Part shown: positions 16,127 through 39,283 of the stretch, in pieces
Layout of the letters: every line of letters begins with the position of its first letter
Position numbering within the stretch: position 1 is the first letter of the stretch
Assembly (NCBI RefSeq): GCF_000310225.1
Contig: NZ_AMXF01000008.1
Location: 1 to 45,797 of the forward strand
Source of the DNA: Thauera phenylacetica B4P
Lineage (GTDB): Bacteria; Pseudomonadota; Gammaproteobacteria; Burkholderiales; Rhodocyclaceae
Direction: 5' to 3'
DNA length: 45,797 nt
Program-made: the position numbers and the translations under genes
The notes under the pieces: generated by a model
Database searches by the model: none
Told to the model about the DNA's origin: nothing
Seen by the model: the letters and a program-made list of their open reading frames with translations, nothing else

Positions 16127-16636
16127 TCAGGCGGTGAAGCTGGCGACGGCGGAGACCGCCTCGGCGTAGCTCACCTTGTGCTGCGCGGCGTAGGCGCGGG
16201 CGCGGGAGTCGATCTCGGCATCGGACAGGCCCTGGGCGCTGCCGGCGGTGGGCGCGGCGGTGCCGGGCGCGAACTCGCCGAAGCTCACCACCGGCTGGGC
16301 CGCGGCGAGCAGGCCCTTGAGCCATTCGGCCGGGGGCACTTCCTTGGTGGCGCCGCCCTCGGCGAACTTCACCGGCTGAGCGTCGGCCAGGGTTTCGAGC
16401 ACGGCCACCGCGGCGTCCTTGTCCTTGGGCAGCAGCCGGCCGGCCTTGACCTGGTCGTCGGCAAACGACACGAAGCCGGCATGGCGGTCGCGGCGCGCCT
16501 GTTCGGCGAACTGCGCCAGTTGCGCCTTGGCGGCGGCGGCCTCGGCCTCGGCCGCGGTCTTGGCGTCGAGGGCGGCCTTGGCGTCGGCTTCGGCCTTGGC
16601 GGCGCGGTCCTGCGCGTCCTTGATTTCCTGCGTCAT
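16127..16636 (-). CDS. Internal in-frame scaffold protein (Mu Z-type)
   Basis: ATG at 16636 (MTQEIKDAQDRAAKAEADAK) is preceded by AGGAG with 6-nt spacing, the best ribosome binding site in this gene, and begins exactly at the coiled-coil scaffold half of the protease. Mu makes its scaffold Z from an internal start of gene I in the same way. The product would be 169 aa. Confidence 0.6.
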   Translation of the reverse strand: MTQEIKDAQDRAAKAEADAKAALDAKTAAEAEAAAAKAQLAQFAEQARRDRHAGFVSFADDQVKAGRLLPKDKDAAVAVLETLADAQPVKFAEGGATKEVPPAEWLKGLLAAAQPVVSFGEFAPGTAAPTAGSAQGLSDAEIDSRARAYAAQHKVSYAEAVSAVASFTA

Positions 16637-17137
16637 GGATTGCTCCTGGTGGGGGGGATGGGGTGGATTGGCGGCCGGCCCCGGCTCGCCCTCGGAAAAG
16701 CTCACGGTGCCGGCGTCGTCGTCGGCAAAGTCCTTGAGCCCGGCAATGGCCGGCGGCTGCGCGCCCAGAAAGGCGACGTGCCGCAGGTACCACTGGCCGG
16801 GCTTGGGGTTGTTGGGGTGCTGCGGGGGGTAGAACGAGGCCGACCGCTTCTTGAAGCGGCCGGCGGCCACCATTTCGGCGAACTGCGGCTCGACCTGGTG
16901 CGCATCGACGACCAGGCGGCCGGCGGCGTTGCGCGCCACGCGCTTCACCCAGCCGTAGGCCGGGAGGTTGTGCGCGGGGTGGCCGACGGTGAGCGGCGCT
17001 TCGCGCACGGCCGGGTCGTAGGCCTCGACCATGCCGGCCACGTCGGCGTCGGAGAATTCATGCACCGCGCCCGCGTCGTCGATGTGCCGACCGGGGCGGA
17101 AGATCTCGATGGAGGGAGGAAGCTGTGCGGTAGCCAT
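16127..17137 (-). CDS. Phage protease with C-terminal scaffold (Mu I-type)
   Basis: 336 residues. The N-terminal half (PPSIEIFRPGRHIDDAG, then APLTVGHPAHNLPAYGWVKR and QVEPQFAEMVAAGRFKKRSA) matches Mu gpI maturation proteases. The C-terminal half is an Ala/Glu/Lys coiled coil of scaffold type. I use ATG 17137. A GTG at 17146 is in frame. An internal ATG at 16636 with its own SD probably gives the scaffold alone. The late-type dyad lies 37 nt upstream, overlapping the stop of the previous gene. In Mu and B3-like phages this gene follows G, but here G is 22 kb away on the other strand. Confidence 0.88.
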   Translation of the reverse strand: MATAQLPPSIEIFRPGRHIDDAGAVHEFSDADVAGMVEAYDPAVREAPLTVGHPAHNLPAYGWVKRVARNAAGRLVVDAHQVEPQFAEMVAAGRFKKRSASFYPPQHPNNPKPGQWYLRHVAFLGAQPPAIAGLKDFADDDAGTVSFSEGEPGPAANPPHPPHQEQSMTQEIKDAQDRAAKAEADAKAALDAKTAAEAEAAAAKAQLAQFAEQARRDRHAGFVSFADDQVKAGRLLPKDKDAAVAVLETLADAQPVKFAEGGATKEVPPAEWLKGLLAAAQPVVSFGEFAPGTAAPTAGSAQGLSDAEIDSRARAYAAQHKVSYAEAVSAVASFTA

Positions 17138-17149
17138 GCCCCGCACTGT

Positions 17150-17189
17150 GTCCGCGCGGGGATGGGGGCGCTAAATGAAGCGCTTCATT
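17150..17189 (-). promoter_or_regulatory. Late promoter site before protease (Mu PI position)
   Basis: A perfect 16-bp palindrome AATGAAGC/GCTTCATT (17174-17189) is followed leftward by TTAGCGCCCC. The same element stands before the endolysin (31945-31960) and gp37 (10115-10130). It overlaps the TGA of the small regulator gene. The -10 is weak (CACAGT at 17150-17145), as expected of an activator-dependent promoter. The centre here is GCGC rather than the GGGG/CCCC of the other two copies. Confidence 0.6.
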
Positions 17190-17478
17190 GCTTTCCGGCC
17201 GGCAGCGGGTACCGGCCGAAGTGCATGCGCACATACAGCGCGCACACCAGGGTGCCCAGGGCGAGCACCGACTCAGTGTACGCGTTTTGCGGGGTCACCC
17301 CGAGCGCGCGGCCGAGCTCGGCCAGCGTGCAGTGGGCGTCCAGGTGCTTCGACAGGATCACCCCGATGCGGTAGCGGGTGCTCCAGTTGGCGGGCGCCCC
17401 GGGGCGCAGGCGAGCGAACAGCGACAGCAGTTCGGTGAGGTCGGGCGCATCGGCCGCGTTCGATTTCACCGCGGCCAC
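17185..17478 (-). CDS. Sigma-region-4-like HTH regulator, candidate late activator
   Basis: 97 residues from GTG 17478 (a second GTG at 17469 has a better-spaced AGGGG). Residues 50-75 (CTLAELGRALGVTPQNAYTE) read like the helix-turn-helix of sigma-70 region 4.2. The rest is a short helical domain. It is the last early-operon gene, after Mor, in the place Mu uses for its late activator C, yet it does not resemble the Mor/C fold. I infer a role in late promoter activation. Its stop codon lies inside the late palindrome. Confidence 0.65.
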   Translation of the reverse strand: MAAVKSNAADAPDLTELLSLFARLRPGAPANWSTRYRIGVILSKHLDAHCTLAELGRALGVTPQNAYTESVLALGTLVCALYVRMHFGRYPLPAGKQ

Positions 17479-17485
17479 CCCTGCG

Positions 17486-17499
17486 CCTTTTTATAAAAG
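17486..17499 (-). promoter_or_regulatory. Candidate middle promoter -10 (TATAAA)
   Basis: The only A/T-rich patch in the 97-nt gap between mor and the next gene reads TTTTATAAAAAGG on the coding strand. In Mu, Mor activates a middle promoter at this place. The patch lies very close to GTG 17478, so the downstream GTG 17469 would suit it better. A GC-rich hairpin (17535-17552) lies further upstream. Confidence 0.3.
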
Positions 17500-17575
17500 C
17501 CCCTGGCGCCACGAACGCCCTCGCGCGCAGGCATCCGGGGCGGCAGCGCCCCGCAAACGGCACGGCGGGCCGATT

Positions 17576-18013
17576 TCACGATCTGCCCTCGGCAACGCCG
17601 CCTGCGTCCAGCCCGGGCAGTTTGCCCTGCCGGCGCTCGAACTCCTCCCGACCGCGGCGCTCGACGATGGAGTACACGTGGCGCTCGGTCACCCCGAAGG
17701 CCTGCGCCAGGGCGCGGTGGTTGTGCCCGGTGAAGCGCGCCAGGATCTGGCGGTCGCGCAGGCTCAGCTCGTAGCCCTGGCCCTTGGCCAGATAGAACTG
17801 GCTGCCGCCGAGCTCGGCGCGCAGCCCTTCGGCCAGCTCGAGCGCGAGGTGAGCATGCGCCGTGGCCTCACCAGGCAGGCGGTCGCGCAGCGACAGGTAC
17901 AGGCACTCGGCGATGCGCGCCCAGTTCTCCGGGTAGGCCGGGTCCAGCAGCGCAGCGAGCGGGGCCAGCTCGTCGACCGTGGCGCGGGCCAGGCGACTCG
18001 GCTCGGCGCTCAT
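17576..18013 (-). CDS. mor: Mor-family transcription activator
   Basis: 145 residues. Residues 60-80 (AEGLRAELGGSQFYLAKGQG) and 88-118 (DRQILARFTGHNHRALAQAFGVTERHVYSI) match the Mor/C family: a dimerisation strand with the Y-x-AKG turn, then an HTH. Mor switches Mu from early to middle/late transcription. The gene follows gemA by 1 nt, as in Mu-like early operons. The C-terminal 25 residues look disordered. Confidence 0.88.
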   Translation of the reverse strand: MSAEPSRLARATVDELAPLAALLDPAYPENWARIAECLYLSLRDRLPGEATAHAHLALELAEGLRAELGGSQFYLAKGQGYELSLRDRQILARFTGHNHRALAQAFGVTERHVYSIVERRGREEFERRQGKLPGLDAGGVAEGRS

Positions 18014-18014: not shown

Positions 18015-18449
18015 TCAGCGGGCCTCCCATTGCTTGAGGGACTCGATCAGGGTGTGCTCCTGTGCCGGGGTGAGCCATTCCAGGCGTTGCACCTGGTTGT
18101 CGGTCTGCCCGGCGATCCAGCCCAGCAGGCCCGCCATGCGGCGGTTGCGCACCTTGCCCTGGTCGGCCAGCGTCTGCCACAGCGCCCACATCTTCTTTTG
18201 CCGGGGCGAAAGCGGCTTTTGACGCGCACCGCCCGCCCGCGGCCAGCCCGAATCGTGGAAGTGCTCGACGACGGCGTGCAGCTCGGCCGCGCTGCAGTCC
18301 TTGCTGCTGGTCTTGCCGGCGGCAAAGCGCGCCAGCGTAAGGCGGTAGGTGTCGTCATCCAGGCCCAGGTCGCGCTTGGCCGTGTGGATCTGGCGGATCA
18401 GCTGGGCGTGCTGCGCCGCCCGGGCGGCAGTCAGGGTTGCCGAAACCAT
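18015..18449 (-). CDS. gemA: GemA-like protein (Mu gp16/DUF1018)
   Basis: 144 residues. The N-terminal LIRQIHTAKRDLGLDDDTYR and the C-terminal AGLLGWIAGQTDNQVQRLEWLTP are typical of GemA/gp16 proteins, which alter host gene expression and DNA supercoiling in Mu. I chose ATG 18449 because GGAGG precedes it by 7 nt. A TTG at 18455 would overlap the upstream stop. Confidence 0.88.
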   Translation of the reverse strand: MVSATLTAARAAQHAQLIRQIHTAKRDLGLDDDTYRLTLARFAAGKTSSKDCSAAELHAVVEHFHDSGWPRAGGARQKPLSPRQKKMWALWQTLADQGKVRNRRMAGLLGWIAGQTDNQVQRLEWLTPAQEHTLIESLKQWEAR

Positions 18450-18451
18450 GA

Positions 18452-19144
18452 TCAACCCTCCAGCATGAGATTGGAGGTGGTCGCTACGCCTGCATGCAAC
18501 CGGGCTCCACGCCCGGACAGGCGCCCCGCGACCAACGCAGCTTCGTCCTTTGCCGACAAGTTCCGACCGGCGTTCCGGTCAGCCACATCCAGCTCGCCAA
18601 GACTGGGGTGGTGCAGTTGCATGTGCGCGTCGATAGCGCTCTTTGCGCCCTCCGGAGGCGTTGGTGCGGCGACATTGGCACACGCCGCATACACCCAGCT
18701 CTCGCTGAATAGGTCGGCGCGGCGAGTCTTGTTCGACTTCTTGATCCGCTTGAGTGTCGTCGCGATGAACTCGCCTCGCGCCTTGAGCGCCTGACGCAAC
18801 AGGACCTCGAACGAATAGGCGGCGATCTCGTTGGCGGGGGCTACGCCAACGAAGAGCCAGTGCGCAACGTCCCAGCAAGACCTGATGAAGATGAGTTTGC
18901 AGCCAAAGGCGCGAGCAACTCGCCCGGCAAGATCACTCTCCCACTTCGCGGGTCGAGCGACTGCGCCGCTCTTCGCCTTCGATTCACCGACGCCGGCAGC
19001 GAGCATCTCAACGCTGCTGACCTGATGCATCTCCATCAGCTTCTGCGCTTGCCGTAGTGCAGCCGCTGCCTCGTGCTCACTGCCGGACTTGGCCAGATCC
19101 ATGCACTTGCGAATCTTGGCGAGGATGTCGTCACGTTTGTCCAT
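18452..19144 (-). CDS. DUF2786-domain early protein
   Basis: 230 residues. Residues 5-45 (ILAKIRKCMDLAKSGSEHEA...QKLMEMH) match DUF2786, a small helical domain common in phage early operons. The rest contains a SFEVLLRQALKARGEFI helix and a basic KRIKKSNKTRRADLF segment that may contact nucleic acid. It overlaps the upstream gene by 14 nt. The gene is less GC-rich than its neighbours. No enzymatic motif seen. Confidence 0.75.
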   Translation of the reverse strand: MDKRDDILAKIRKCMDLAKSGSEHEAAAALRQAQKLMEMHQVSSVEMLAAGVGESKAKSGAVARPAKWESDLAGRVARAFGCKLIFIRSCWDVAHWLFVGVAPANEIAAYSFEVLLRQALKARGEFIATTLKRIKKSNKTRRADLFSESWVYAACANVAAPTPPEGAKSAIDAHMQLHHPSLGELDVADRNAGRNLSAKDEAALVAGRLSGRGARLHAGVATTSNLMLEG

Positions 19145-19361
19145 ACTTCACCTCCAATTCGATAGGCATGATGTGGAAATGGGTGGTGTCGCCGCCGCGG
19201 GCGATCTGTGTTGCGCGGTGCGTGCCCGGCGGCCACAGCTTGTCCATCAGGCGCTCGACGGCGACCTGCGGGCTGTTCGTGCTGCTTGCCCGCGTTTTCC
19301 CAATGCGGCAGTTGTACGCGTTGTAGCGATGGCGTACCGCCACTTCGATCGGGTAGGTCAT
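19131..19361 (-). CDS. Small early protein (76 aa)
   Basis: MTYPIEVAVRHRYNAYNCRI...PIELEVKYGQT, basic and strand-rich, starting 1 nt after the DUF3164 stop and overlapping the DUF2786 start by 14 nt. Proteins of this kind occur beside DUF3164 in Mu-like early operons. Function unknown. Confidence 0.65.
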   Translation of the reverse strand: MTYPIEVAVRHRYNAYNCRIGKTRASSTNSPQVAVERLMDKLWPPGTHRATQIARGGDTTHFHIMPIELEVKYGQT

Positions 19362-19362
19362 G

Positions 19363-20019
19363 TCACACCGCCGCCAGGTCGAGCGCGATCGCGCGGTACT
19401 GGTCCGAGTCGCCGATGCGCTGGTACACGCGCACATAGGTGGCTGTGCCGGTGCTCTGGATGCTGTCGCGGATGGCCTCCATGGCGCGTTGCCATTCGGC
19501 GTCGTCGATCTCGAGGCGCAGCAGCTCGAGCACCGCGGTGGTCTTGATCTGGCCCTTGGTGTCGGTGCGGAAGGCGCGATCGACCAGGGCGCGGATGTGC
19601 GGGTTCGCGCCTTCGCTCCAGCGCTCGATGCAGCCGTTGATGAGCACCTTGGCGGCTTCGAGCTCTTCGGTGAAGGCGATGCGCTCGGCCACCTGGCGCA
19701 CCACCTTGTACTGGCCATCGTAGGTGCTGATCTGCACGTTGCCTTTCTTGCCGCCGAGGTTCACCTCGTACTTTTCGCCGGCGATGCGCACCAGGTCGGC
19801 CACGTCGCCCAGGGCGCGGGCCTTGAATTCGCGCAGGCGCTGGTTGAGGGCGACCGCCTCGACGGCGATCTCGCGCGCGACCTGGTCGCGCAGCAGGTCC
19901 TGTTCGCGCACCTGGTCGATCGGCACCAGGTGGTTGGCGGCGTTGCGCATGTAGCCGGCGGGGGCGTCGTCATGCGCCGAGGTTGCGCGGGTGGCGCTGG
20001 GGGTGTTCGGGGTGGTCAT
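19363..20019 (-). CDS. DUF3164 family early protein
   Basis: 218 residues. The family signature is clear: YMRNAANHLVPIDQVREQDL, NLGGKKGNVQISTYDGQYKV, then IRALVDRAFRTDTKGQIKTT and VLELLRLEIDDAEWQRAMEA. DUF3164 proteins are conserved in Mu-like early operons near gemA. Their function is not established. The start overlaps the end of the upstream gene by 50 nt. GGA before ATG 20019 supports it, but ATG 19950 is possible. Confidence 0.85.
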   Translation of the reverse strand: MTTPNTPSATRATSAHDDAPAGYMRNAANHLVPIDQVREQDLLRDQVAREIAVEAVALNQRLREFKARALGDVADLVRIAGEKYEVNLGGKKGNVQISTYDGQYKVVRQVAERIAFTEELEAAKVLINGCIERWSEGANPHIRALVDRAFRTDTKGQIKTTAVLELLRLEIDDAEWQRAMEAIRDSIQSTGTATYVRVYQRIGDSDQYRAIALDLAAV

Positions 20020-20395
20020 GGTCGTGTCCTGTCATGCGGGTGGAAAGCTGTTGCATCAGTGCGGCAAGGCGGGCGCGGTTGGCGGCGCGCTCTTCGGCCG
20101 TCATCGGCGGGGGCGGCAGCGCGGTGGGCGGTGCGCGGATGGGCAGCGCATCGAGCAGCTGGCGCGGCGCCGGCCAGGTGGTGCATTGCGCGTACAGCGT
20201 GCGGAAGGCGGCCTGCAGGCGGGGCGCGTCCTGCGCTTCGGCCCAGCTCGCGGCCCGCACGGCCAGCGCCGCCAGCCAGATGTCGAGGGTGAGCGTGACC
20301 GCGTCCTCGCCCGGTGCACCGGGCAGGCGCAGGGCGACCAGGCCCTGCAGGCCGCGGGCCACCTCGCGCTCGATCCAGCGGGCGATCTCAGCCAC
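19970..20395 (-). CDS. Early protein with Pro-rich centre (141 aa)
   Basis: Starts MAEIARWIEREVARGLQGLV, a helical N-terminal domain, then TWPAPRQLLDALPIRAPPTA and a basic helix (AEERAANRARLAALMQQLST). The WPAPRQ-type motif recurs in helper proteins of Mu-like replication operons. It overlaps neighbours at both ends, so coupled translation is likely. Role unknown. Confidence 0.68.
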   Translation of the reverse strand: MAEIARWIEREVARGLQGLVALRLPGAPGEDAVTLTLDIWLAALAVRAASWAEAQDAPRLQAAFRTLYAQCTTWPAPRQLLDALPIRAPPTALPPPPMTAEERAANRARLAALMQQLSTRMTGHDHDHPEHPQRHPRNLGA

Positions 20396-20885
20396 GGGCG
20401 CGGTCCTCCAGGGCGGCGATGGCGCCCAGGGTGCGCGAGGGCTGCGCGGGGCGCGCCGTGGGCAGGTTGGCGGCCCCCTGGGTGGGCTGAGGCGCCGCGG
20501 CCACGGTGGCCGGGCGCCAGCCGCTGATCACCTCGTACAGCCAGCCATGGGAGGTGAGCGGAAGCTTGAGGCGACCCGCGTCGCGCGCCTCGAGCGCCTG
20601 GCCGATGGCCCAGATCCAGGCCTCGGGCGGCGCTGGCCAGGTGGCGCCGGCACGCTCGATGCGCTGGGCCTGCAGGTCGGGCACGATCTCGCGCAGCAGC
20701 TTGGCGACGCGGTCCAGGCTCAGCTCACGCCGCGCCGGCCGGAACAGGCCGATGTAGCGCGTGACCGCCGCACCCAGCGCCCCCGAGAGCTGGAAGACCA
20801 GGGCGAGCGCCTCGCGCGCGCCCTCGTGCGACATCAGCGCGTCCAGGCTCATCACGGCGCCGCAGTTGGGGCAGCGGGTTTTCAT
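20388..20885 (-). CDS. Zinc-finger early protein (165 aa)
   Basis: The N-terminus MKTRCPNCGAVMSLDALMSH has one CxxC knuckle and a downstream His. The middle (PARRELSLDRVAKLLREIVP) is helical. The C-terminus is Pro/Ala-rich. ATGA overlap with the upstream gene. It is likely to bind DNA or a replication partner. I do not recognise the family name. Confidence 0.7.
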   Translation of the reverse strand: MKTRCPNCGAVMSLDALMSHEGAREALALVFQLSGALGAAVTRYIGLFRPARRELSLDRVAKLLREIVPDLQAQRIERAGATWPAPPEAWIWAIGQALEARDAGRLKLPLTSHGWLYEVISGWRPATVAAAPQPTQGAANLPTARPAQPSRTLGAIAALEDRARG

Positions 20886-21823
20886 GCGGCAACCTCGCTG
20901 GCCCGCACGCGGCCCAGGCCGTCGAGCAGGCGGGCCAGGCGGGCCACGTCGGCGGGCGCGATCTGCAGCAGGTCGTCGCCGTCGTAGATCGACAGGCCAC
21001 CGTCGTCCCACAAGGCAAAGTGGATCTGCACACGCGGCGCCTCGGCCACCTGGGCCGCGGCGGCACCGATATCGATGTCGTCGGCGGGCTCCATGCCGCC
21101 GAGGGCATCGGCGATGGCGGCCAGGCCGGCGACGACGTTGGCTGCCGGCACGGCGGGCGGTGTCGTGGCGGCAGGCACCTCGACCCTTTCGGCGGGGACG
21201 ACGGATTCGTCGATCGCTGCTGCTGGGTCGTACAAACGGTTCGCGCGCTCGCCGGCCAGGCAGCCCCGGGCTACGCGCAGGCCGCCCAGCATCTCCTCGA
21301 CCAGATAGCCCACCCCTTGGGAGCTCAGACCCAGCTCACGCGCCACCTCGGCGTAGGTGAGCCCTTGCGCGATCGGGCGGCCGCGAACGAGCTCGGCGAT
21401 GCGGTCGCGACGGTCTTTTCCGGAGGTGCGGCGGCAGGGCTTGTTGCTCATGATGTTCTCCTCGATTGCGCGCCGGGCGGCCGGCGACTGTGGGAAGCGG
21501 CGCGGGGTTTCGGTGCGATGCACCGCGAAGCCGCCGCGGACGTTGAGGTCTCGCCAGCTGTGGTGTGCGACGGGCAGCCCGGTCGGCCAGATGGCCAGCC
21601 AGGGGGCCGGATCGGCGCCGCGCTGGATGTGCGCGGTATTGATGGCGCATCCGCGCCGCAACTGCTCGAGCGCCGCCCAGAAGTGCCGTTCGTCGCCGCC
21701 GAGCTGGGCGGCGATGTCGGCCGCCCGGGCCGGGCGCTTGCTGTTGTTGGGCGCGATCGCGGCGAGGATGCGGTCGGCGAGTGCGGCGGCGGCGGCCGGC
21801 GCGGCGGATGCGAGCGAGGTCAT
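20882..21823 (-). CDS. Two-domain HTH early protein, possibly a gene fusion
   Basis: 313 residues. Residues 1-124 contain one winged-helix-like unit (ADIAAQLGGDERHFWAALEQ) and WLAIWPTGLP. Residues 125-313 contain another HTH (LTYAEVARELGLSSQGVGYL) and a C-terminal VQIHFALWDDGGLSIYDGDD strand set. An internal ATG (Met125, 21451) has a strong GAGGAG 7 nt before it, so a separate 189-aa product is likely. It is ATGA-coupled to the gene upstream. Confidence 0.7.
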   Translation of the reverse strand: MTSLASAAPAAAAALADRILAAIAPNNSKRPARAADIAAQLGGDERHFWAALEQLRRGCAINTAHIQRGADPAPWLAIWPTGLPVAHHSWRDLNVRGGFAVHRTETPRRFPQSPAARRAIEENIMSNKPCRRTSGKDRRDRIAELVRGRPIAQGLTYAEVARELGLSSQGVGYLVEEMLGGLRVARGCLAGERANRLYDPAAAIDESVVPAERVEVPAATTPPAVPAANVVAGLAAIADALGGMEPADDIDIGAAAAQVAEAPRVQIHFALWDDGGLSIYDGDDLLQIAPADVARLARLLDGLGRVRASEVAA

Positions 21824-22044
21824 GGCCCGAGCGCCTCCCCCAGCTGCACGGTCAGCGCCAGCGCGGCAGCCTCGCTCAGGCGCAGGTGGCCGATGCGGCG
21901 CGGAGTGCTGCAGCCGCTGACCAGTTGCACTACCAGGCTGATGTCGCCGTTGTCGAGCTCGCCGGCGGTGACGGCGACGCGGGCGCCGCGGGCGCCGCGG
22001 TCGGCGATGTTGAGCGCGGTCTCGATCTCATGCTGGGTCGCCAT
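21820..22044 (-). CDS. Small early protein after MuB (74 aa)
   Basis: MATQHEIETALNIADRGARG...ALTVQLGEALGP. The two short halves suggest a compact alpha/beta fold. It starts 2 nt after the MuB stop and ends in ATGA overlap with the next gene. No family recognised. Confidence 0.65.
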   Translation of the reverse strand: MATQHEIETALNIADRGARGARVAVTAGELDNGDISLVVQLVSGCSTPRRIGHLRLSEAAALALTVQLGEALGP

Positions 22045-22046
22045 GG

Positions 22047-23279
22047 TCAGCACCCCGCGATCACGTCGGCGGTCACGCGCGGCATGGCCACCGCGGCTGC
22101 GGCGTTCATGGCGCGCACCACCAGGTTGTTGCACAACAGCGGGTAGCAGATGCTGCGCGCCTCGGCCGGGCTGCCGCCACGCGGGCGGTGCACCAGGCGC
22201 ACGCGGATGGCGTCGATCGCGGCCTCGTCGAGCACGCTGTCGATCGGCGTGCCGACGCGGGCGAACTTGTGCGCCAGGTAGGGGCGCAGATCGTCGTCGA
22301 GCGGCAGCATTTCGCGACGCTCGCAGCGCTGCACGATCTCGCGCACGTCGCCGAGCTTGTCGCTGAGCGTGTTGTCGAGCTCGGGCTGGCCGATCAGCAC
22401 CACGCCGAGCAGGCGGCGCAGGCCGACCTTGAGCTCCATGTAGCCCTTGAGGGCGCGCAGCGTGCTCACCGGCAGGCGGTGCGCCTCTTCGATCACCAGC
22501 AGGTTGTTGTAGCCGGCCTGCTGGCTGGCGGCGAGCAGGTCGCGCACGCGCTTGCTGCGCGCCTGGGTCGAGCTCGGGATGCTGCCCGAGGGGTCGAACT
22601 CGCGGATGATGGCCTCGGACACCTGCCCGGCCCACATCGGTTTGCCGCTGCGCTCGGTCTTTTCCATCTCCATCACGTAGGGCTTGATCACCACCACCGG
22701 GCGGTTCTCGATGCGGATGCGCTCCTCGAGCTCTTCGCGCAGGGTGGTCTTGCCGCTGCCCGATTCGCCCACGAGGGCCAGAAAGCCCTGGTTGAGCGCG
22801 CAGTCCATCAGCGCGGCACGGGTGCGGCGGGTGGCGGCGCTGGCGAAGACGTCGTCGAGCGCGCGCACGTCATCCACGAAGGGGCTGCGCGGCAGGCCGA
22901 AGTGCGCGCATGCATCCGGGGTCAGGTGTTTGTTGCGAAGTAACATTTGCTCGTCCTCGTCGTGCGGATCAGGTGAGTCGGTGGGTTCGGGGTGTTCCAG
23001 GGCCTCGGCCGCGCCGGCGGCGCCACCCTTGCGCGACCGGGGCCCGTGTTCGAATGCGCTTTCCACTTGCGCCGGCGTGGCGCCCGCGGCGGCAAGCGCC
23101 TGCTCGATGGCGGTGCGCAGCGCGCGGCGGCGGGCGCTGTTGCGCGGCCACATTCCGTGGTTGGCCAGTTGCGCCACGGTGGCCGGGCTGACTTCGGCGG
23201 CGCGCGCCAGCTCGCTCTGGTTGGTGCCCAATTGCAGCAGCAGCAGTTTCAGGTTCAGCACAGGATCTCCAGGGTTCAT
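22047..23279 (-). CDS. MuB-like transposition ATPase
   Basis: 410 residues. The N-terminal HTH (NQSELARAAEVSPATVAQLA, residues 20-39) is followed by a linker and an AAA+ core with Walker A GESGSGKT (171-178) and Walker B LLVIEEAH (260-267), in the MuB/ExeA style. MuB binds DNA non-specifically, selects targets and activates MuA. Start ATG 23279 overlaps the transposase stop (ATGA). The frame extends further upstream but coding begins here. Confidence 0.92.
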   Translation of the reverse strand: MNPGDPVLNLKLLLLQLGTNQSELARAAEVSPATVAQLANHGMWPRNSARRRALRTAIEQALAAAGATPAQVESAFEHGPRSRKGGAAGAAEALEHPEPTDSPDPHDEDEQMLLRNKHLTPDACAHFGLPRSPFVDDVRALDDVFASAATRRTRAALMDCALNQGFLALVGESGSGKTTLREELEERIRIENRPVVVIKPYVMEMEKTERSGKPMWAGQVSEAIIREFDPSGSIPSSTQARSKRVRDLLAASQQAGYNNLLVIEEAHRLPVSTLRALKGYMELKVGLRRLLGVVLIGQPELDNTLSDKLGDVREIVQRCERREMLPLDDDLRPYLAHKFARVGTPIDSVLDEAAIDAIRVRLVHRPRGGSPAEARSICYPLLCNNLVVRAMNAAAAVAMPRVTADVIAGC

Positions 23280-32786: not shown

Positions 32787-33307
32787 TCGGCAAGTACTTC
32801 GACGGGGCGCTTGCCTTGGCGATGGGCGCGGCGCTGCTGGTGGTGCTGACCGTGGTGGGCTGGATGAGCTACCAGGCCGGCGCGGCGAGCGGCGCACGCG
32901 CGGCCGCTGCCGAGCGCGAGCGCACCCTGCAGGCCGAACAGGCGGCGACCCGCGAGGCGCTCGAGCGCCTGCAGGCGGCGCAGACGCGCGGCGACACGCT
33001 GAGCCGCCAACTGGCCGCCGCGATCCGCGAGACGGGGCGGCTGCGCAAGGAGCGAGACGATGCGATTTCCCGCACGACCACTGGCCGTGTGTGCCTGGAC
33101 GAGCCTGCTTTGCGGGTGCTCGACGGCGCCCCCGGCCTCGATGCCGATTTGCCCGACGCCGCCGGCGGCGCTGCTCGAGCGGATGCCGGACACGTTGCCA
33201 CCGATACCCACGTCGCCCGCTGGGCGCTCGATGCCGGCGGGCGGTACGACGAGTGCCGGCGCCGGCTCGATGCGTTGATCGGCTGGCATGAGGAGGGGCC
33301 TCGATGA
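32783..33307 (+). CDS. Rz-like inner-membrane spanin
   Basis: 174 residues: N-terminal membrane segment (ALAMGAALLVVLTVVGWMSY), long periplasmic coiled coil (AAAERERTLQAEQAATREAL), and Cys near the C-terminal half (CLDEPAL, YDECRRRL). ATGA overlap with the endolysin. It bridges to the Rz1 lipoprotein embedded in its 3' part and disrupts the outer membrane at lysis. Confidence 0.85.
   Translation: MIGKYFDGALALAMGAALLVVLTVVGWMSYQAGAASGARAAAAERERTLQAEQAATREALERLQAAQTRGDTLSRQLAAAIRETGRLRKERDDAISRTTTGRVCLDEPALRVLDGAPGLDADLPDAAGGAARADAGHVATDTHVARWALDAGGRYDECRRRLDALIGWHEEGPR
33060..33278 (+). CDS. Rz1-like outer-membrane spanin lipoprotein
   Basis: 72 residues encoded out of frame inside Rz. The signal ends in the lipobox LLCGC, leaving a Cys-anchored Pro-rich mature part (STAPPASMPICPTPPAALLE). 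GGAGCGA precedes ATG 33060. Nested Rz/Rz1 is the classic arrangement. Confidence 0.8.
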   Translation: MRFPARPLAVCAWTSLLCGCSTAPPASMPICPTPPAALLERMPDTLPPIPTSPAGRSMPAGGTTSAGAGSMR

Positions 33308-33606
33308 ACATCGAGCAGCTGAACTTCGGCTTCGGGACGATGCAATGGGTGGTGATCGGGGTGATCGGCATCTATTCGTGGCTGATCGGCCGCCAGGCGG
33401 CGAGCGCCAAGGAGCTGCTGGAGCTGCGCACGCGCATCACCACGCTGGAGGCGGAGATGCGCGCGGTGCCGAGCCACAACCAGCTCAACGAGCTGATGGG
33501 CCGGCTGGAGCGGCTGGACGCCAAGCTCGAGGGGGTGACCGACAGCATGCAGCCGCTGGCGCGCAGCCTGGACCGCATCAACGATTACCTGCTGCAGCAC
33601 AAGTGA
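33304..33606 (+). CDS. Mu gp25-like DUF2730 protein
   Basis: 100 residues: membrane segment GTMQWVVIGVIGIYSWLIG, then a coiled coil (LLELRTRITTLEAEMRAVPS, MGRLERLDAKLEGVTD). This matches DUF2730, found between lysis and terminase genes in Mu-like phages. ATGA overlap with Rz. Function unknown. Confidence 0.82.
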   Translation: MNIEQLNFGFGTMQWVVIGVIGIYSWLIGRQAASAKELLELRTRITTLEAEMRAVPSHNQLNELMGRLERLDAKLEGVTDSMQPLARSLDRINDYLLQHK

Positions 33607-33613: not shown

Positions 33614-33904
33614 ATGAGCTATTCCGACTTTCTTCGCCGTGACATGCGCCTGGTGATCCTGCGCATCCTGTGCGAGCTGCCGAGTTACCGGGGCAACAGC
33701 TCGGTGATCGCGAACCTGCTGCACCAGCTCGGGCATTCGTGGACGCGCGACCAGGTGAAGGCCGAGCTGCGCTGGCTGGCCGAGGTGGGCACGCTCGCCG
33801 TGGACGAGGCCGGGTCGGTGCTGGTGGCGACGCTGGCCGAACGCGGGCAGGACGCGGCCGAGGGGCGAGTGACGATCGACGGCATTGCGCGGCCGAGGGC
33901 TTGA
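33614..33904 (+). CDS. Mu gp26-like winged-helix protein
   Basis: 96 residues: MSYSDFLRRDMRLVILRILC, then SSVIANLLHQLGHSWTRDQV and LRWLAEVGTLAVDEAGSVLV, an ArsR-like winged helix. It lies directly before the small terminase as in Mu. It probably assists terminase or DNA recognition. Confidence 0.82.
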   Translation: MSYSDFLRRDMRLVILRILCELPSYRGNSSVIANLLHQLGHSWTRDQVKAELRWLAEVGTLAVDEAGSVLVATLAERGQDAAEGRVTIDGIARPRA

Positions 33905-33906
33905 CC

Positions 33907-34473
33907 GTGGGCCGCAAGTCTTCCGTGGATAAGCAGTCGCCGGGCGTGCGCGCGCACATCCTGCGCCGGCTGCGCGAGAACCGCCTGACGCTCGACGAGC
34001 TGATCGCGGACCTGCACGCGACCTTTCCGGCCGCCGCAGCCAGCGGCGAGCTGCCCAGCCGCAGCGCGCTGCATCGGTTCGGCCAGGGCGTGCAGGAGAT
34101 CGTGGCGCACGAGCGCGAAATGGCGGCCGCGGCCGAAGCGCTGGTGGCGGAGCTGGGCGAGGAGTTCGACGCCAAGAGCGGCGCGCTGCTGGCCCAGGCA
34201 GTGACGACGCTGGCGAGCAAGACGGCGATGAACGCGATCCAGTCCGACCAGACGCTGGAGATCGGCGACGTGCTCGACCTGGCGCGTGCGGCGAAGGCTG
34301 CGCAGGAGGCGCGCAGCCTGAACCTGCGCGAGCGCCAGGCGGTGGCGAAGTCGGCGCGCGAGAAGCTGCTCGAGGAGCAGGACGCGAACCTTCAAGCCGA
34401 GGCGAAAGCCCAGGGCATGGACGAAGCGCAGGTCGACTTCTGGCGCAGGAAGGTGTTGGGGATCCGCGCGTGA
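33907..34473 (+). CDS. Terminase small subunit (Mu gp27/DUF3486)
   Basis: 188 residues from GTG 33907 (TTG 33901 possible). RRLRENRLTLDELIADLHAT and PSRSALHRFGQG form the DNA-binding half. The C-terminal half is helical and charged, ending FWRRKVLGI. DUF3486 proteins bind pac DNA and recruit the large subunit. The large terminase follows with a 4-nt overlap. Confidence 0.88.
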   Translation: MGRKSSVDKQSPGVRAHILRRLRENRLTLDELIADLHATFPAAAASGELPSRSALHRFGQGVQEIVAHEREMAAAAEALVAELGEEFDAKSGALLAQAVTTLASKTAMNAIQSDQTLEIGDVLDLARAAKAAQEARSLNLRERQAVAKSAREKLLEEQDANLQAEAKAQGMDEAQVDFWRRKVLGIRA

Positions 34474-36083
34474 ACGAACTGAGACCGCGCGCCGACACGG
34501 TACGCATTGTCGAGTGGGAAGAACTGCCGGAGTCGGTGAAGCAGATTCCAGCCGATATGAACCCGCTGGCCGATGGCGTACTGATGAAGCACCAGGCCGA
34601 ATGGTGCGCCATAGAGGCGTCATTGAAAGCGGCATCGAAGGGGCGCAGAACGGGCATCACCTTTGCTGAGGCTCTTGATGACACATTGACCGCGAGCAGC
34701 CGCAAGAGCGCGGGCGGCGACAACGTCTACTACATCCCGGACGCGAAAGAAAAGGGGTTGGAATTCATCGGGTATTGCGCGCACTTCGCACGGGTGATCG
34801 CCGAGGCGCAGTCCATGGGTATCTCGAGGATCGAAGAGTTCCTCTTCGAGGACCAACGGGACGATGGCTCGACGCAGATGATCAGCGCCTTTCGCATTCG
34901 GTTCTCGTCCGGCTTTTCGATTGTCGCCCTATCGTCCCGGCCCGCTTCAATTCGGGGCCTGCAGGGGATCGTGGTCATCGACGAAGCCGCGTTCCACCAG
35001 AACGTTCAGGCGGTGCTGGATGCCGCGACTGCGCTGCTGATCTGGGGCGGCAAGATCCGAGTGATCTCGACTCATAACGGCCGTAGCAACCCTTTCAACC
35101 AACTATGCCAGGACATCGAGAAAGGTCGGTACGGGAGCGACGCCAAAGTCTATACGGCTACGTTTGATGATGCAGTACGAAATGGGCTGTACGAGCGGGT
35201 GTGCATGATGAGGGGATGGTCGCCGTCGCCGGAAGCGAAGAAGGCGTGGTACGCCAAGATCCGCCACGCCTATGGCCCTCGGCAGGCGGCGATGCGAGAG
35301 GAACTGGATGCGATCCCTCGCGACGGCGGAGGCGTTGCAATCCCCGGGGTCTGGATCGACCGCGCGATGAAGGGGGATCGCCCCGTGCTTCGTCTGACGC
35401 TCGACGACGATTTCGTGCGCAAGACCGAGTTCGAGCGCGACCTGGTGGCTGCGATGTGGGTCAAGGTATTCATGAAGCCGTTGATTGCGCGTCTGGACCC
35501 GAACCTGCAAACGGTGTTCGGCATGGACTTCGCGCGCCATCGCAACTTCACCGTGATCACGCCGGCACAGATCACGCAGTCTCTGAGCCGCTTCGTGCCG
35601 TTCGTGATCGAACTACACAACGTTCCGTCGCGACAGCAGGAGCGGATTCTCTGGGCACTTATTGAGCTGCTTGGACCGATGTTCCGTGGTGGGGCGATGG
35701 ATGCGACCGGCCCCGGGCTGACGCTTGCCGAGTACACGGCCGATCGTTACGGCCACGACTGCATCCACCAGGTTGTACTCAACGTGAAGTGGTACGCCGA
35801 GTACATGCCGAAGATGGTGCAGCGTTTCGAGGACGATGACTACGACCTCCCCCGCGACGCGAACGTCGAAGAGGACCTGCGGGCCATTGAGAACGTCGAC
35901 GGCATCCCTCGCGTCCTTCCCGTCAATACAAAGGACCTGAAAGAGCCGGAGCTCTATCGGCATGGAGACTTTGCCGTTTCTCTCGTGCTCACCGAGTACG
36001 CGGCGTTGAACATGGCCGCTCCCATTGAAGTCACGAGCGACGGCCCGCGCGGCGCCGACATCCAAGGATTCCTGCATGGCTAA
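34470..36083 (+). CDS. Terminase large subunit (Mu gp28)
   Basis: 537 residues from GTG 34470. The ATPase half has a deviant Walker A (SKGRRTGITFAEA, residues 57-69) and Walker B GIVVIDEAAF. The nuclease half has FGMDFARHRN and a later GAMDATGPG acidic pair. It translocates DNA into the prohead and makes headful cuts. The gene shows lower GC and less third-position bias than flanking genes, hinting at a separate history. Overlaps the portal gene start. Confidence 0.92.
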   Translation: MNELRPRADTVRIVEWEELPESVKQIPADMNPLADGVLMKHQAEWCAIEASLKAASKGRRTGITFAEALDDTLTASSRKSAGGDNVYYIPDAKEKGLEFIGYCAHFARVIAEAQSMGISRIEEFLFEDQRDDGSTQMISAFRIRFSSGFSIVALSSRPASIRGLQGIVVIDEAAFHQNVQAVLDAATALLIWGGKIRVISTHNGRSNPFNQLCQDIEKGRYGSDAKVYTATFDDAVRNGLYERVCMMRGWSPSPEAKKAWYAKIRHAYGPRQAAMREELDAIPRDGGGVAIPGVWIDRAMKGDRPVLRLTLDDDFVRKTEFERDLVAAMWVKVFMKPLIARLDPNLQTVFGMDFARHRNFTVITPAQITQSLSRFVPFVIELHNVPSRQQERILWALIELLGPMFRGGAMDATGPGLTLAEYTADRYGHDCIHQVVLNVKWYAEYMPKMVQRFEDDDYDLPRDANVEEDLRAIENVDGIPRVLPVNTKDLKEPELYRHGDFAVSLVLTEYAALNMAAPIEVTSDGPRGADIQGFLHG

Positions 36084-37644
36084 GAAAACGACGCGACTTC
36101 CCGCGCCCGAGCTGGGCACCGAAGTCGCCAACCGGCTACGTGATCCGTTCGAGAGCACGTACATGGGCGTGCTGCAGACGAACGATCCGCTGCTGCTGGA
36201 GAAGGGCGACCCGAACGGCGAGCTGTACCGCGACCTGAAGCGCGACGGGAAAGTCTTCGAGGGGTTGCAGAAGCGCCAGTTGGCGCTGATCTCGCGCCCA
36301 TGGCAGGTGGAGCCGGTGGAGGACGGCGAGGCCGGTACAGCCTCCGCGGAGGTGGTGACCGATATCCTGAAGCGCTGTGCGTTCGACCAGGTGTGCCGTG
36401 ACTTGATGGACGCGCTGCTGCGCGGCTTTGCGGTGAGCGAGATCGTGTGGGCAGTGCGCGACGGGAGGATCGTGCCCGAGCGGGTGGTGAAGCGGGCGCA
36501 GCGCCGCTTCCGGTTCGTCCAGCAGGACGAGAACGCGCCACCCGAGCTGCGCCTGCTGACGCGCGAGAACATGCTGACCGGCGTGCAGCTCAAGGACCGC
36601 AAGTTCATCGTGCATCGGGTCAATCCCGAGGACGACAACCCTTACGGAACGGGGCTGGGCCTGCAGCTGTACTGGCCGGTTTTCTTCAAGCGCAAGGGCA
36701 TCATCGCCTGGAACAAGCTCAACGACCGCTTCGGCAGCCCCACGCCGTGGGGCAAGTACCCGCGCAATGCCGGCCCGAAGGAGAAGGGCACGCTGTTCGA
36801 TGCGCTGCGCGCGATCAGCAACGATGGCGTGGTGATGACACCCGAGGGCATGCAGATCGAGCTGCTCGAGAGCAAGCTGACGGGGTCGGTGTCGACGCAG
36901 GAATCGCTGTGCAACTACATGGACGACTGGATCGCTGGCGTGCTGCTCGGGCAGGAGCCGCGCACGAGCGGTGGCGGCGCGTTGGCCGCGGCGAGCAAGG
37001 AGCGTACAGCGGTGCGCCTCGACCTGGTGCAGGCCGACAGCGATCTTTTGAGCGATACGCTCAACAGCACCTTGATCCGCTGGATCTGCGAGTACAACGG
37101 GCTGGCACCGTGCCTGGTGTATCGCGTGATCGCCGAGGAGGAAGACCTGAAGGCGAGCAGCGAGACGGACAAGAACGTGTCGGAGATGGGCTTCGAGCTC
37201 AACCTGGACGCGGTGCGGGCGAAGTACGGAGAGGGCTGGGAGAAGAAGGCGCCGACGCCCGTACAACCGCCTGTTCTGCCGGGGCAGCGCCCCGCAGCCG
37301 TTCCTGTTGTCGACAACGCGGAATCTGATGGCGAAGTACAGGAATCTGTAGCCGAGACACAGAAAGGGGCGACGGCGAGCTTTGCCGAGCCCGGCGGGCG
37401 CGATGCGATCGACGATGCCGTGGATGAAGCGCTGGGCGAATGGGAGGAGGTCATCACGCCGATCACCGACCCAGTGCTTGCCGCGATCGCCGACGCCGCA
37501 GCCGCCGGCGAGACCGCCGAGCAGGTGCTGCAGCGCATCAGCGCGTTGCTCGCCGCCGAAAACGCCCCCGACGCGGGCCCGCTCGCCGAGCGCCTCGCGC
37601 AACTGGCCGGCGCGGCGCGTCTGGCGGCAAATGCGGGAGGGTGA
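36076..37644 (+). CDS. Portal protein (Mu gp29/DUF935)
   Basis: 522 residues. DUF935 hallmarks are YRDLKRDGKVFEGLQKRQLA, RGFAVSEIVWAV, ISNDGVVMTPEGMQIELLES and the C-terminal GEWEEVITPITDPVLAAIAD. Forms the dodecameric portal ring. ATG 36076 overlaps the terminase end. Pro/Val-rich linker near residue 400 precedes the C-terminal domain. Confidence 0.92.
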   Translation: MAKKTTRLPAPELGTEVANRLRDPFESTYMGVLQTNDPLLLEKGDPNGELYRDLKRDGKVFEGLQKRQLALISRPWQVEPVEDGEAGTASAEVVTDILKRCAFDQVCRDLMDALLRGFAVSEIVWAVRDGRIVPERVVKRAQRRFRFVQQDENAPPELRLLTRENMLTGVQLKDRKFIVHRVNPEDDNPYGTGLGLQLYWPVFFKRKGIIAWNKLNDRFGSPTPWGKYPRNAGPKEKGTLFDALRAISNDGVVMTPEGMQIELLESKLTGSVSTQESLCNYMDDWIAGVLLGQEPRTSGGGALAAASKERTAVRLDLVQADSDLLSDTLNSTLIRWICEYNGLAPCLVYRVIAEEEDLKASSETDKNVSEMGFELNLDAVRAKYGEGWEKKAPTPVQPPVLPGQRPAAVPVVDNAESDGEVQESVAETQKGATASFAEPGGRDAIDDAVDEALGEWEEVITPITDPVLAAIADAAAAGETAEQVLQRISALLAAENAPDAGPLAERLAQLAGAARLAANAGG

Positions 37645-37649
37645 ACGTT

Positions 37650-37892
37650 ATGAGACAGGTCACTGAGCGGGACTTCCGTATGCCGGAGTTTCGGGATGCC
37701 GACCCCGATGACTACGAGTTTCGTGAAGACGGCAAGATCGTGCGGAAAGATCGTTGGGAAATGGGCATCCGCCGCATCCGAACAGCCCTTGGGGACACTC
37801 GAAGAGAGTTCGAGATCGATGACGTCATACAGGCCGTAAAGGCGCTGGTTGCGGCACAACCTCCACTTCCCGATGAGGGGGGTGATGAATGA
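37650..37892 (+). CDS. Small acidic phage protein (80 aa)
   Basis: MRQVTERDFRMPEFRDADPD, then DYEFREDGKIVRKDRWEMGI and a helical end. GGGAGG precedes the ATG by 9 nt. Similar short proteins are inserted between portal and F genes in Mu-like prophages. No known function. ATGA overlap with F. Confidence 0.72.
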   Translation: MRQVTERDFRMPEFRDADPDDYEFREDGKIVRKDRWEMGIRRIRTALGDTRREFEIDDVIQAVKALVAAQPPLPDEGGDE

Positions 37893-38668
37893 CGCCCGCA
37901 GAGTTCGCCCAGGTCTTCAAGCTCACGCCCCAAGAGGCGATCGCCTATCTGCAGGCGCGCGATCTGCTCACGACCACCGATGACTGGTACGAGCTGTGGC
38001 AGGACGAACATGCGGCCCAGTTCACTGTGTCGCGCCTGGCTCGAGCGGACCTGCTCAAGACGATTCGCGATGCGATCACCCGATCGGTCGATGGCGAGTT
38101 GTCCCGCCGGGACTGGATGCGCGACATCAAGCGGGCACTGGTCGATGCGGGCTGGTGGGGCGAGAAGACGATCACCGGCAAGGACGGTGAGCAGCGCACC
38201 ACCACCTTCGATGCCCGCCGCCTCAAGCTGATCTACGACACCAACACCCGCACTGCCTACGCCGCAGGCCAATGGGAGCGCATCCAGCGCACCAAGACGG
38301 CCTTCCCCTACCTGCGCTACATCACGATGGGCGACGAAAAGGTGCGCGCCTCACATCGCTCGCTCCACAACCTGGTGCTCCCGGTCGATGACCCGTTCTG
38401 GGACTACTACCTGCCGCCCAACGGTTGGCGCTGTCGGTGTCGGGTGGTGGCGGTCTCGCAGCGAGACTACGAGCGGGGGATGGCGCCTGACGGATCGAAG
38501 CTGAAGAAGGCGGCCCCTGATGTCCAGATGCGCGAGTGGGTGGACCGACGCACCGGCGAGATCCGCCAGGTCCCGATCGGCGTAGACCCCGGCTTTGGCT
38601 ACAACGCCGGCAAGGCGGCAGCCCGTGCAGCTGCACTCGCCGACCTGATCCGCTCGAAGACGAGATAG
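37889..38668 (+). CDS. Minor head protein (Mu F/SPP1 gp7 type)
   Basis: 259 residues. LKLIYDTNTRTAYAAGQWER, then YLRYITMGDEKVRASHRSLH and YLPPNGWRCRCRVVAVSQRD are the MuF signature, with His and paired Cys. Acts at head assembly and may enter the cell with DNA. The C-terminus has no toxin domain. Confidence 0.92.
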   Translation: MTPAEFAQVFKLTPQEAIAYLQARDLLTTTDDWYELWQDEHAAQFTVSRLARADLLKTIRDAITRSVDGELSRRDWMRDIKRALVDAGWWGEKTITGKDGEQRTTTFDARRLKLIYDTNTRTAYAAGQWERIQRTKTAFPYLRYITMGDEKVRASHRSLHNLVLPVDDPFWDYYLPPNGWRCRCRVVAVSQRDYERGMAPDGSKLKKAAPDVQMREWVDRRTGEIRQVPIGVDPGFGYNAGKAAARAAALADLIRSKTR

Positions 38669-38676
38669 GAGACACC

Positions 38677-38835
38677 ATGCACGCGCCCACCCAAAACGAA
38701 ATCTACGAAGTACTCAATCAGTGCATGGAGGCCTTCGACGCCGGCTCACGCTGGCCCGGCGCGACCTTCGAGCAGGGCGTCGAAGCTGCAGTCCGCTGGA
38801 TGCTGGGCGAAGGTGACAACCCGATGGAGGATTGA
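38677..38835 (+). CDS. Small protein between F and G (52 aa)
   Basis: MHAPTQNEIYEVLNQCMEAF, acidic and helical, from ATG 38677 with AGGAG 6 nt before. It is too short for most calls, but the ribosome site and bias are good. Ends 4 nt before gpG. Function unknown. Confidence 0.65.
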   Translation: MHAPTQNEIYEVLNQCMEAFDAGSRWPGATFEQGVEAAVRWMLGEGDNPMED

Positions 38836-38839
38836 ACGC

Positions 38840-39283
38840 ATGCCCCTCACGATCACCGCCGACACCAAGTTCATCACCGACTACCTCGACCAGGTCGGCA
38901 AGCGCATCGACGATCCCGCGCCACTTCTGGACCAGATTGGCATGCTGATGGAGACCCGCATCAGCAACCGCTTCGAAACCATGACCGATCCTGGCGGGAA
39001 AAAGTGGACCAAGTGGGCCGAGAGCACCAAGGCGGCCTACCCGGACGACGGGCACGGCCGGCTGCTCGACCGCTACGGCGACATGCTCCGCAGCCTGACC
39101 CACACCGCGGACGCTCGATCGGCGAAAATCGGCTTTGGTTCGGCGACGGCCGCGTACCACGAGTTCGGCACCAAACGCATGCCCCGCCGCGGCCTGCTGT
39201 TCGATGACCCCGAGTCCGCCGATCTCGCCGACGGCGACCGTCAGGCTATCCTCGATCTCGTTTCCGACTACCTGCAGACCTGA
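38840..39283 (+). CDS. Virion morphogenesis protein (Mu gpG)
   Basis: 147 residues: RIDDPAPLLDQIGMLMETRI, GGKKWTKWAESTKAAYPDDG, then ATAAYHEFGTKRMPRRGLLF, the phage virion-morphogenesis/tail-completion signature. Last rightward phage gene. In Mu and B3-like phages the protease gene I follows, but here the prophage end does. Confidence 0.9.
   Translation: MPLTITADTKFITDYLDQVGKRIDDPAPLLDQIGMLMETRISNRFETMTDPGGKKWTKWAESTKAAYPDDGHGRLLDRYGDMLRSLTHTADARSAKIGFGSATAAYHEFGTKRMPRRGLLFDDPESADLADGDRQAILDLVSDYLQT

Follow-up and report, generated by a model that had tools for sequence, protein, structure and literature searches.

In Mu-type phages the late regulon is controlled by one activator, with sites at the lys, I and P promoters. 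Pseudomonas phage B3 (NC_006548) has the gene order Mor (at the left end), early genes, repressor, lysis, terminase, portal, F, G, I, capsid and tail. Transposable phages are described, in passages of one report, as strongly constrained in gene order (PMC8705779). Burkholderia phage KS10, which forms plaques and was published in 2008, has a layout near to the one described here, and the portion of its report cited gives the capsid module as divided and the first 17 kb as inverted (PMC2628397). Among the matches listed in open-licence PubMed Central, divided head genes are in print for KS10 (PMC2628397) and for Leptospira prophages (PMC8705779).

Results

A complete prophage with two opposed head gene blocks

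The window analyzed here is a whole contig of 45,797 bases, one of 681 in the draft assembly of Thauera phenylacetica B4P. Joined with contig C271, which overlaps window positions 1-75, it contains a complete prophage of 40,725 bp, the tail end of which lies outside the window on C271. Gene identities in the window are PHROG or Pfam matches.

1-12716, minus strand: tail module (Pfam), continuing on C271 to the right-type end
4280-8221, minus strand: tape measure (Pfam)
9527-10129, minus strand: tail terminator (Pfam)
10223-11860, minus strand: Mu gp36-like protein (Pfam)
15136-16098, minus strand: major head protein (phrog_1005)
16127-17146, minus strand: head maturation protease I (phrog_976, E 6.6e-95), with an in-frame ATG at 17137
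17576-18013, minus strand: Mor-type late activator (phrog_532), the last early gene, adjoining the protease arm
18015-27198, minus strand: early region, containing the next four genes
22047-23369, minus strand: B
23276-25012, minus strand: A
25998-26315, minus strand: Ner-like gene
26644-27198, minus strand: CII-like gene
32013-33606, plus strand: lysis genes (endolysin, Rz and a phrog_736 protein)
32013-32786, plus strand: endolysin
32747-33307, plus strand: Rz
33670-34473, plus strand: terminase small subunit
34470-36083, plus strand: terminase large subunit
36025-37644, plus strand: portal
37889-38668, plus strand: F
38813-39283, plus strand: G (phrog_26)
39335-39404, minus strand: left-type phage end, which over the 70 bases compared is homologous to the left end of B3 on its Mor side
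39405-39410, no strand: target duplication GAAGGG, with its second copy on C271 just before the tail end
39414-41642, plus strand: host TonB-dependent receptor gene (Pfam), beside the insertion; its true start is probably inside the ORF

The head genes form two opposite-facing blocks that flank the control region. Lysis, terminase, portal, F and G read rightward to 39283, and protease I, capsid and tail read leftward from 17137 beside Mor, which confirms the split late head module of the preliminary description. The start of the protease and the end of G are 22.1 kb apart. F and G are the last genes ahead of the left-type end, with 121 bases between the G stop (39283) and the phage end (39404). 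Flipping the Mor-to-G block of the window gives the gene order of the B3 record, as had been proposed. This gene order is directly established, as are the ends and the target duplication.

The 6-bp duplication GAAGGG flanks the prophage on either side (on C271 and at 39405-39410), and G002, G003, G006 and G009 likewise have 6-base duplications at both ends. A duplication of 6 bp is the footprint of a B3-type transposase, according to part of a published account (PMC8705779). Unlike what is expected of B3-like transposable phages, the termini are not TG-CA at both ends; the right-type end starts TGAAG and the left-type end TAAGAAC. The latter is common to the window, G001, G002 and G003, and G006 and G009 have TGAAC. 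TA ends are reported for some Leptospira prophages in the same partial account (PMC8705779). End comparison pairs the G-side end with the Mor-side left end of B3 and the tail end with the B3 right end. None of 1000 shuffles did as well as this unflipped pairing, while the crossed pairing was equaled by 939 and 961 of 1000. These comparisons indicate that the phage ends kept their place and that only the Mor-to-G block is flipped relative to B3.

When used to scan viral contigs, the TonB receptor found no relative. A link between insertion sites and iron-uptake genes is possible.

Late-promoter-like dyads on both arms

One dyad occurs at three late-promoter-like places, on both arms.

10112-10130, minus strand: P_P-like dyad before the tail terminator, overlapping the ORF start that is listed at 10129, with an in-frame ATG 30 bases further on
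17171-17189, minus strand: P_I-like dyad before protease I, at the inner junction of the flipped block
31945-31963, plus strand: P_lys-like dyad before the endolysin (dyad search)

The search word was derived from the site at 17171, so that match is by construction; the word had no match in 100 shuffles. Three dyads each were directly observed in the window, G001, G002 and G003, and each arm begins at its own late-type promoter site. At the level of sequence, this bears out for Thauera phages the earlier claim that both halves keep such sites. A looser scan found two sites in G006 and in G008 and two in G011, both on the minus strand, and none in G009, G010, G016, G017 or B3. Upstream of the protease, a strict form of the dyad is present at 16 of 41 split loci and 6 of 22 contiguous loci, against a control of 1.7-1.8%. 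Four Thauera phages combine one Mor gene with three dyads at matching places, and several relatives are without the pattern.

The split order in related phages

The preliminary description had raised a lineage with a split late region, to be sought as prophages with G beside the phage end and I beside mor. Early genes beside the protease are widespread. Early genes adjoin the protease in 55 of 86 related protease loci and head genes in 24, with 7 uncalled (a count that includes L089 and duplicate records). They do so in independent assemblies labeled Thauera, Acidovorax, Giesbergeria, Roseateles, Diaphorobacter, Rhodoferax, Azonexus and Azoarcus. By coordinate comparison, portal and protease are far apart on opposite strands in 17 of 20 records. 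The terminase-portal-F arm reaches the left end in G001, G002, G003, G006 and G009, which are all five relatives with both ends located. The split of the head genes is the usual layout of a related phage family and not damage, and the proposed lineage trait is supported.

Protease and portal trees showed one mostly split clade with three contiguous-order lines nested inside. The protease tree has 4 order changes, every one of them required by starred branches, where shuffling gave a mean of about 19; the portal tree has 3. The protease tree left out 7 uncalled loci, 8 identical proteins and L006, L008, L014, L042 and L049, viral records taken from their ids and equal match values as copies of the window or of genome records. 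It included L089 without counting it, as its early-gene match is weak, 7.9 kb off and on the other strand. A careful protease tree including KS10, with L089 and proteins shorter than 200 aa also dropped, gave 4 changes for the split label and 4-5 over bootstraps. In the B tree, the sole change separating contiguous rows has support 33. The three nested lines show that the order can change again; neither they nor the fixed position of the phage ends had been anticipated in the preliminary description.

Megablast with window positions 15500-40400 matched none of 50,697 phage records. Protein matches in these records (23 for the capsid, with a best row of 34.5%, 62 for the protease and 253 for the portal) were all below 60% identity. 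No close cultured relative is therefore evident in that collection.

Origin of the split order

We consider it highly probable that the prophage is a complete B3-like transposable phage, that a flipped left arm is the usual layout of its lineage, and that a shared dyad keeps the late blocks together. Relative to B3, everything from the left end to the G|I boundary is inverted, probably by a single inversion; this block comprises Mor, the early genes with B and A, the repressor region, the lysis genes, terminase, portal, F and G. As a result, lysis, terminase, portal, F and G read toward the left end, and the early genes and Mor toward protease, capsid and tail. Each late block starts with a separate copy of the dyad (P_lys-, P_I- or P_P-like), which may keep expression together. 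The single Mor-type activator, coded beside the inner junction, presumably binds all three, and the phage may well be active. The breakpoint of the flip would be an old promoter boundary, with no operon cut. Another possible route is self-transposition, with the left end inserting into the phage's own center; events of this kind are reported for Ab30 in part of a published text (PMC5977238). On this reading the inner junction should retain a left end; the left end adjoins G instead, and the idea was rejected.

Taken alone, the window is compatible with an inversion confined to the B4P prophage after integration, as its order differs from that of B3 by one flip, and the 681-contig draft would allow an assembly error that fused parts of unrelated phages. 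However, the Mor-protease neighborhood is common to Thauera L007, L009, L073 and L074 and to many farther relatives, and the G-to-left-end junction to G001 and G002. The same junctions recur in isolates, MAGs and viral contigs that were assembled separately, and both target-duplication copies of the prophage match. Because the same layout is found in independent assemblies and in the five end-located relatives, a private inversion is very unlikely and an assembly error extremely so; both had been entertained in the preliminary description.

Both orders inside one clade could also reflect an active inversion switch, with both orders within one phage population. Yet the breakpoints share exact words of at most 8 bases inverted and 7 direct, with no longer repeat, near-identical Thauera records all show one order, and no invertase is among the family matches of the scanned ORFs (a subset of all ORFs), making such a switch highly improbable. 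Recombination, in which the head genes joined a new early block of the other orientation and the order travels with that block, would fit the protease tree, in which the contiguous L027, L037 and L047 nest within split rows. On the B tree, by contrast, the proteins of G016 and G017, which are the records of L027 and L037, group as sisters close to B3 and apart from the main split set. However, that placement is weakly supported and the branches are long, and both breakpoints fit a simple flip with the ends in their places. We regard early-block recombination as unlikely.

Candidate satellite elements

The genome of the window also holds a transposase-less mini-element (contig C41, 7,797 bp, duplication ACCAAC), and a complete chromosome, G290, holds another transposase-less element (13,462 bp, duplication CCGAGC). 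Both have L- and R-type ends like those of the window phage, genes in common and an exact copy of the 12-base core found in the P_I dyad of the window; neither matched A, B, terminase large subunit, portal or capsid. Five related elements carry a permuted copy of protease I, with C-terminal motif copies first and the protease domain last. A scan of viral contigs with the N-terminal part of the protease-like protein of C41 gave no relative.

We see an even chance that the split-layout phage is a helper and that the transposase-less elements are an undescribed class of satellites. These would be transposed by the helper's A and B in trans and induced by its late activator. They would affect helper capsid assembly by means of altered versions of I, scaffold and G, whose genes lie on either side of the split. 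No transposase-less satellites of Mu-like phages appeared among the titles and abstract openings listed from open-licence PubMed Central, and the portion searched of a review of helper-dependent elements (PMC11389934) is without the terms 'transposable phage', 'phage Mu' and 'Mu-like'.

Discussion

Measured from the left end, the start of protease I falls at 0.55-0.58 of the length in five prophages with the split layout (the window, G002, G003, G006 and G009), at 0.48 in KS10 and at 0.52 in B3. The start is near mid-length, and the flip therefore involves one whole arm up to about the middle. In Mu, a strong central gyrase site aids end pairing and an off-center shift weakens it, according to part of a published report (PMC3820752). 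This suggests a rule that whole arms can be flipped if promoter boundaries and the center are respected.

B3 shares with the window phage homologous ends, the gene set and a divergent two-arm plan, and its A (41% over 593 aa, E 1e-137) and B (38% over 407 aa, E 3e-82) are similar. It differs in that Mor occupies the left end and I comes next after G, a succession that the window lacks. The Leptospira transposable prophages, as described in part of their report (PMC8705779), have head and tail modules in one orientation, with no Mor or C genes found, whereas the window halves are opposed and include Mor.

The preliminary description had allowed that related phages with this order might already be reported, and KS10 (NC_011216) largely is such a phage. 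Its F, portal, terminase and lysis genes are read toward the left end as far as that end, whereas the genes for A, B, GemA and Mor lead into protease, capsid and tail; Mor to tail likewise runs in one direction in the window. However, the KS10 homologue of G, gp34 (21683-22114), sits on the capsid side, whereas the window G (38813-39283) is beside F and the left end. KS10 also has a tail sheath, its A, B and Mor are only weakly similar to those of the window, and its protease falls outside the window's clade, although a joint clade was not rejected (p-AU 0.25). A layout termed unique to KS10 in 2008 has a variant form that is usual in a broad clade of beta-proteobacterial prophages.

Gene layout of the window

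The window is one entire contig (C8, 45,797 b) from a 681-contig draft. Family scans placed tail, capsid and protease I genes leftward, with the first start at 17137, and the early genes, B and A, likewise leftward, after Mor. Lysis, terminase, portal, F and G run rightward, up to 39283. The preliminary description had called the genes of both arms and seen a split head module; the scans bear out its gene calls, and the split is real and was well read. The terminase large subunit (34470-36083) is only 25% identical to those of G001 and G002, while neighboring genes are at least 90% identical, and is 80% identical to that of G011 (G, L and C numbers denote genome or viral records, single loci or stretches, and contigs of the window's genome, respectively). 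The difference from G001 and G002 reads as a single-gene swap.

Spread of the split layout

We call a layout split if early genes adjoin protease I, with terminase, portal, F and, where detected, G on the other arm, and contiguous if head genes adjoin it. A protease scan returned 86 loci, 67 viral and 19 genomic. Among them are the window's own record, counted as viral, and several apparent copies of genome records. The adjoining gene is an early gene at 55 of the 86, a head gene at 24 and uncallable at 7. Every called locus with at least 47% best-segment identity is split except L027, L037, L038, L047 and L064; the 62% identity of L064 is for the best segment only, and this locus lies far outside the split clade on trees. 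Portal and protease coordinates in 20 records gave 17 split and 3 contiguous. Gene maps are split in G001, G002, G003, G006, G008, G009, G011, G020 and G191, and in G010 so far as its stretch, which is without the protease, reaches; G016 and G017 are contiguous.

Other prophages with G at the phage end, which the preliminary description suggested seeking, do occur, as G was found on the left-end side in G001, G002, G006, G008, G010 and G011. Only F was detected there in G003, G009, G020 and G191. Of the two readings offered earlier, an inversion private to this prophage becomes very unlikely, while a lineage with a split late region stands, given the 55 of 86 protease loci that adjoin early genes. 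The split layout is a lineage trait, the usual order of its lineage. In L076, from a Burkholderiales relative, F and G lie just 2.4-3.7 kb upstream of the protease, on the other strand and with Mor between, which makes it a further layout variant.

Trees of gene order

The protease tree (68 rows: 44 split, 23 contiguous and the uncounted L089) requires four order changes, each forced by starred branches; the shuffled mean is about 19. A careful protease tree (66 rows: 42 split, 23 contiguous and Burkholderia phage KS10) gave four changes for the split label, and 4-5 across bootstraps, and the portal tree (38 rows) requires three. Contiguous L027, L037 and L047 are nested inside on the protease trees; the portal tree places their records, G016, G017 and G018, likewise. 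For B (36 rows, with B3, G016 and G017 contiguous) one change is enough, on a branch with support 33 in a tree with long branches. G016 and G017 have sister B proteins, placed outside the main split set. A foreign early block in the nested contiguous lines counts here as a lead and no more. Because the trees are unrooted, the direction of order change is read from the outside rows, whose order is contiguous.

Prophage ends and insertion sites

The window agrees closely with G001 and G002 as far as 39404 and diverges beyond. Contig C271 carries the other prophage end, its overlap with the window being the first 75 bases. GAAGGG is present at both junctions, on the window and C271 sides, and the prophage, 40,725 bp long across the two contigs, is complete. 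Relatives carry the following 6-bp duplications:

G002, GCGTAC
G003, CGCGCA
G006, TCATGC
G009, TCGGGC

G001 did not show a matching 6-bp duplication; its right flank is just 7 bases long.

The first 60 bases of the G-side end aligned with the left end of Pseudomonas phage B3 (NC_006548; score 28, reached by 0 of 1000 shuffles) and gave no alignment with its right end (939 of 1000 shuffles reach the score). Conversely, the tail-side end aligned with the B3 right end (score 20, 0 of 1000) and not with the left (961 of 1000). In the B3 record, the left end adjoins Mor. The comparison indicates that the phage ends kept their places, and that window and B3 differ by an apparent flip of the whole block from the left end to the G|I boundary. 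The left-type end starts TA, not TG, in the window, G001, G002 and G003.

The same TonB-receptor gene lies downstream of three near-identical phages in three assemblies: the window (39404), G002 (L116 16392) and G001 (L181 983). The window and G002 insertions are less than about 25 bases apart in opposite orientations, with about 370 bases between the G001 insertion and the receptor match. Iron-uptake genes stand beside 5 of the 11 insertion sites inspected (window, G001 and G002, each at the TonB receptor, and G003 and G016). Named by eye, the neighbors are hemP-bfd-bfr-tonB-like with a Fur-box-like site in G003 (L122, about 50690) and a TonB receptor with an STN-like start in G016 (L142), and the G191 flank (L185) reads like cas1/cas2. 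The G002 flank has, some 280-590 bases off, a repeat that matches at 167 places in the window's own genome, whereas Saltovirus Ab30 has its hotspots 55-61 bases from BIME repeats (PMC5977238).

Late-promoter-like dyads

With up to three mismatches, the dyad AATGAAGCGCTTCATTTAG matched at three places in the window and in none of 100 shuffles; there are four matches, as the palindrome at 17171 counts on both strands.

10112, dyad before the tail genes
17171-17189, dyad AATGAAGCGCTTCATTTAG before protease I
17576-18013, leftward, Mor (family scan)
31945, opposite strand to the other two dyads, dyad before the endolysin

The dyads agree with the earlier suggestion of late-type promoter sites on both halves. 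The late activator C of Mu targets the lys, I, P and mom promoters (PMC4461284), so the dyads stand where P_lys, P_I and P_P would be expected. We infer that they are bound by Mor.

G001, G002 and G003 have three dyads apiece, G006 and G008 two each, and G011 two on one strand; the same scan found none in G009, G010, G016, G017 and B3. Such uneven counts among relatives speak against a simple rule. Among the loci, 16 of 41 split ones and 6 of 22 contiguous ones have a strict dyad within 200 bases upstream of I, compared with 1.7-1.8% of control windows. Its presence in both layouts suggests that a P_I-like site may predate the flip. A second, AT-rich dyad, GCTTTTATAAAAAGG (17486-17500, between Mor and ORF 17185-17478), is single-copy in the window, is retained in L073 and L030, and is perhaps a middle promoter.

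Candidate satellites

Tracing of phage ends brought further elements to light.

L182 85-7881, own genome (contig C41), 7,797 bp, right-type and left-type ends, duplication ACCAAC
L309/L310, G290 (one-contig chromosome), 13,462 bp, duplication CCGAGC

Ends with a duplication were established for these two only; related stretches are L314 (G021), L311 (G275) and L312 (G140). The C41 element has ORFs with matches to G (66% to the window's copy), a terminase-small-subunit N-terminus, head scaffold, the protease family and a Mor-type activator; none matches A, B, terminase large subunit, portal or capsid. The G290 element, whose first 22 bases are those of the window phage left end, additionally carries a DUF5131 gene and codes for a tape measure protein. 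The protease-like protein is permuted in each of the five related versions compared (C41, G290, G275, G140, G021), with C-terminal-motif copies of protease I first and the protease domain last. This protein has matches in 28 of 297 genomes (family draw), running well past the protease domain in five (own, G290, G275, G140, G021).

Mor, scaffold, G and the terminase-small N-terminus are coded in only part of the family, and G275 and G140 gave no Mor match. The exact 12-base core of the window P_I dyad occurs in C41 and G290. It lies immediately ahead of the Mor-like gene in C41, and at some distance upstream of it in G290 and G021; G275 and G140 have looser dyads only, expected by chance about once per 13 kb (control). 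At E <= 0.001, the window's A matched in its own genome and G140, and not in G290, G021 or G275. Judged by sequence, these transposase-less elements with phage-type ends are candidate satellites of transposable phages. A helper phage might move them in trans, and they might in turn act on its heads.

Comparison with known systems

The split layout has printed precedent in a close variant, KS10 (NC_011216). In its record, as in the window, F, portal, terminase and lysis run to the left end, while A, B, GemA and Mor lead into protease, capsid and tail; the KS10 G homologue, however, is on the capsid side. The preliminary description had raised the possibility that related phages with the window's order were already reported, and KS10 bears this out except for the position of G. 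Its authors describe the division of the capsid module as found in KS10 alone and report plaques (PMC2628397). The KS10 protease is a long branch placed outside the window's clade. A joint clade with the window lineage proteases is not rejected (p-AU 0.25), so these layouts may have one origin or two. Leptospira prophages also keep terminase and portal apart from other head genes but, unlike the window, in one orientation (PMC8705779).
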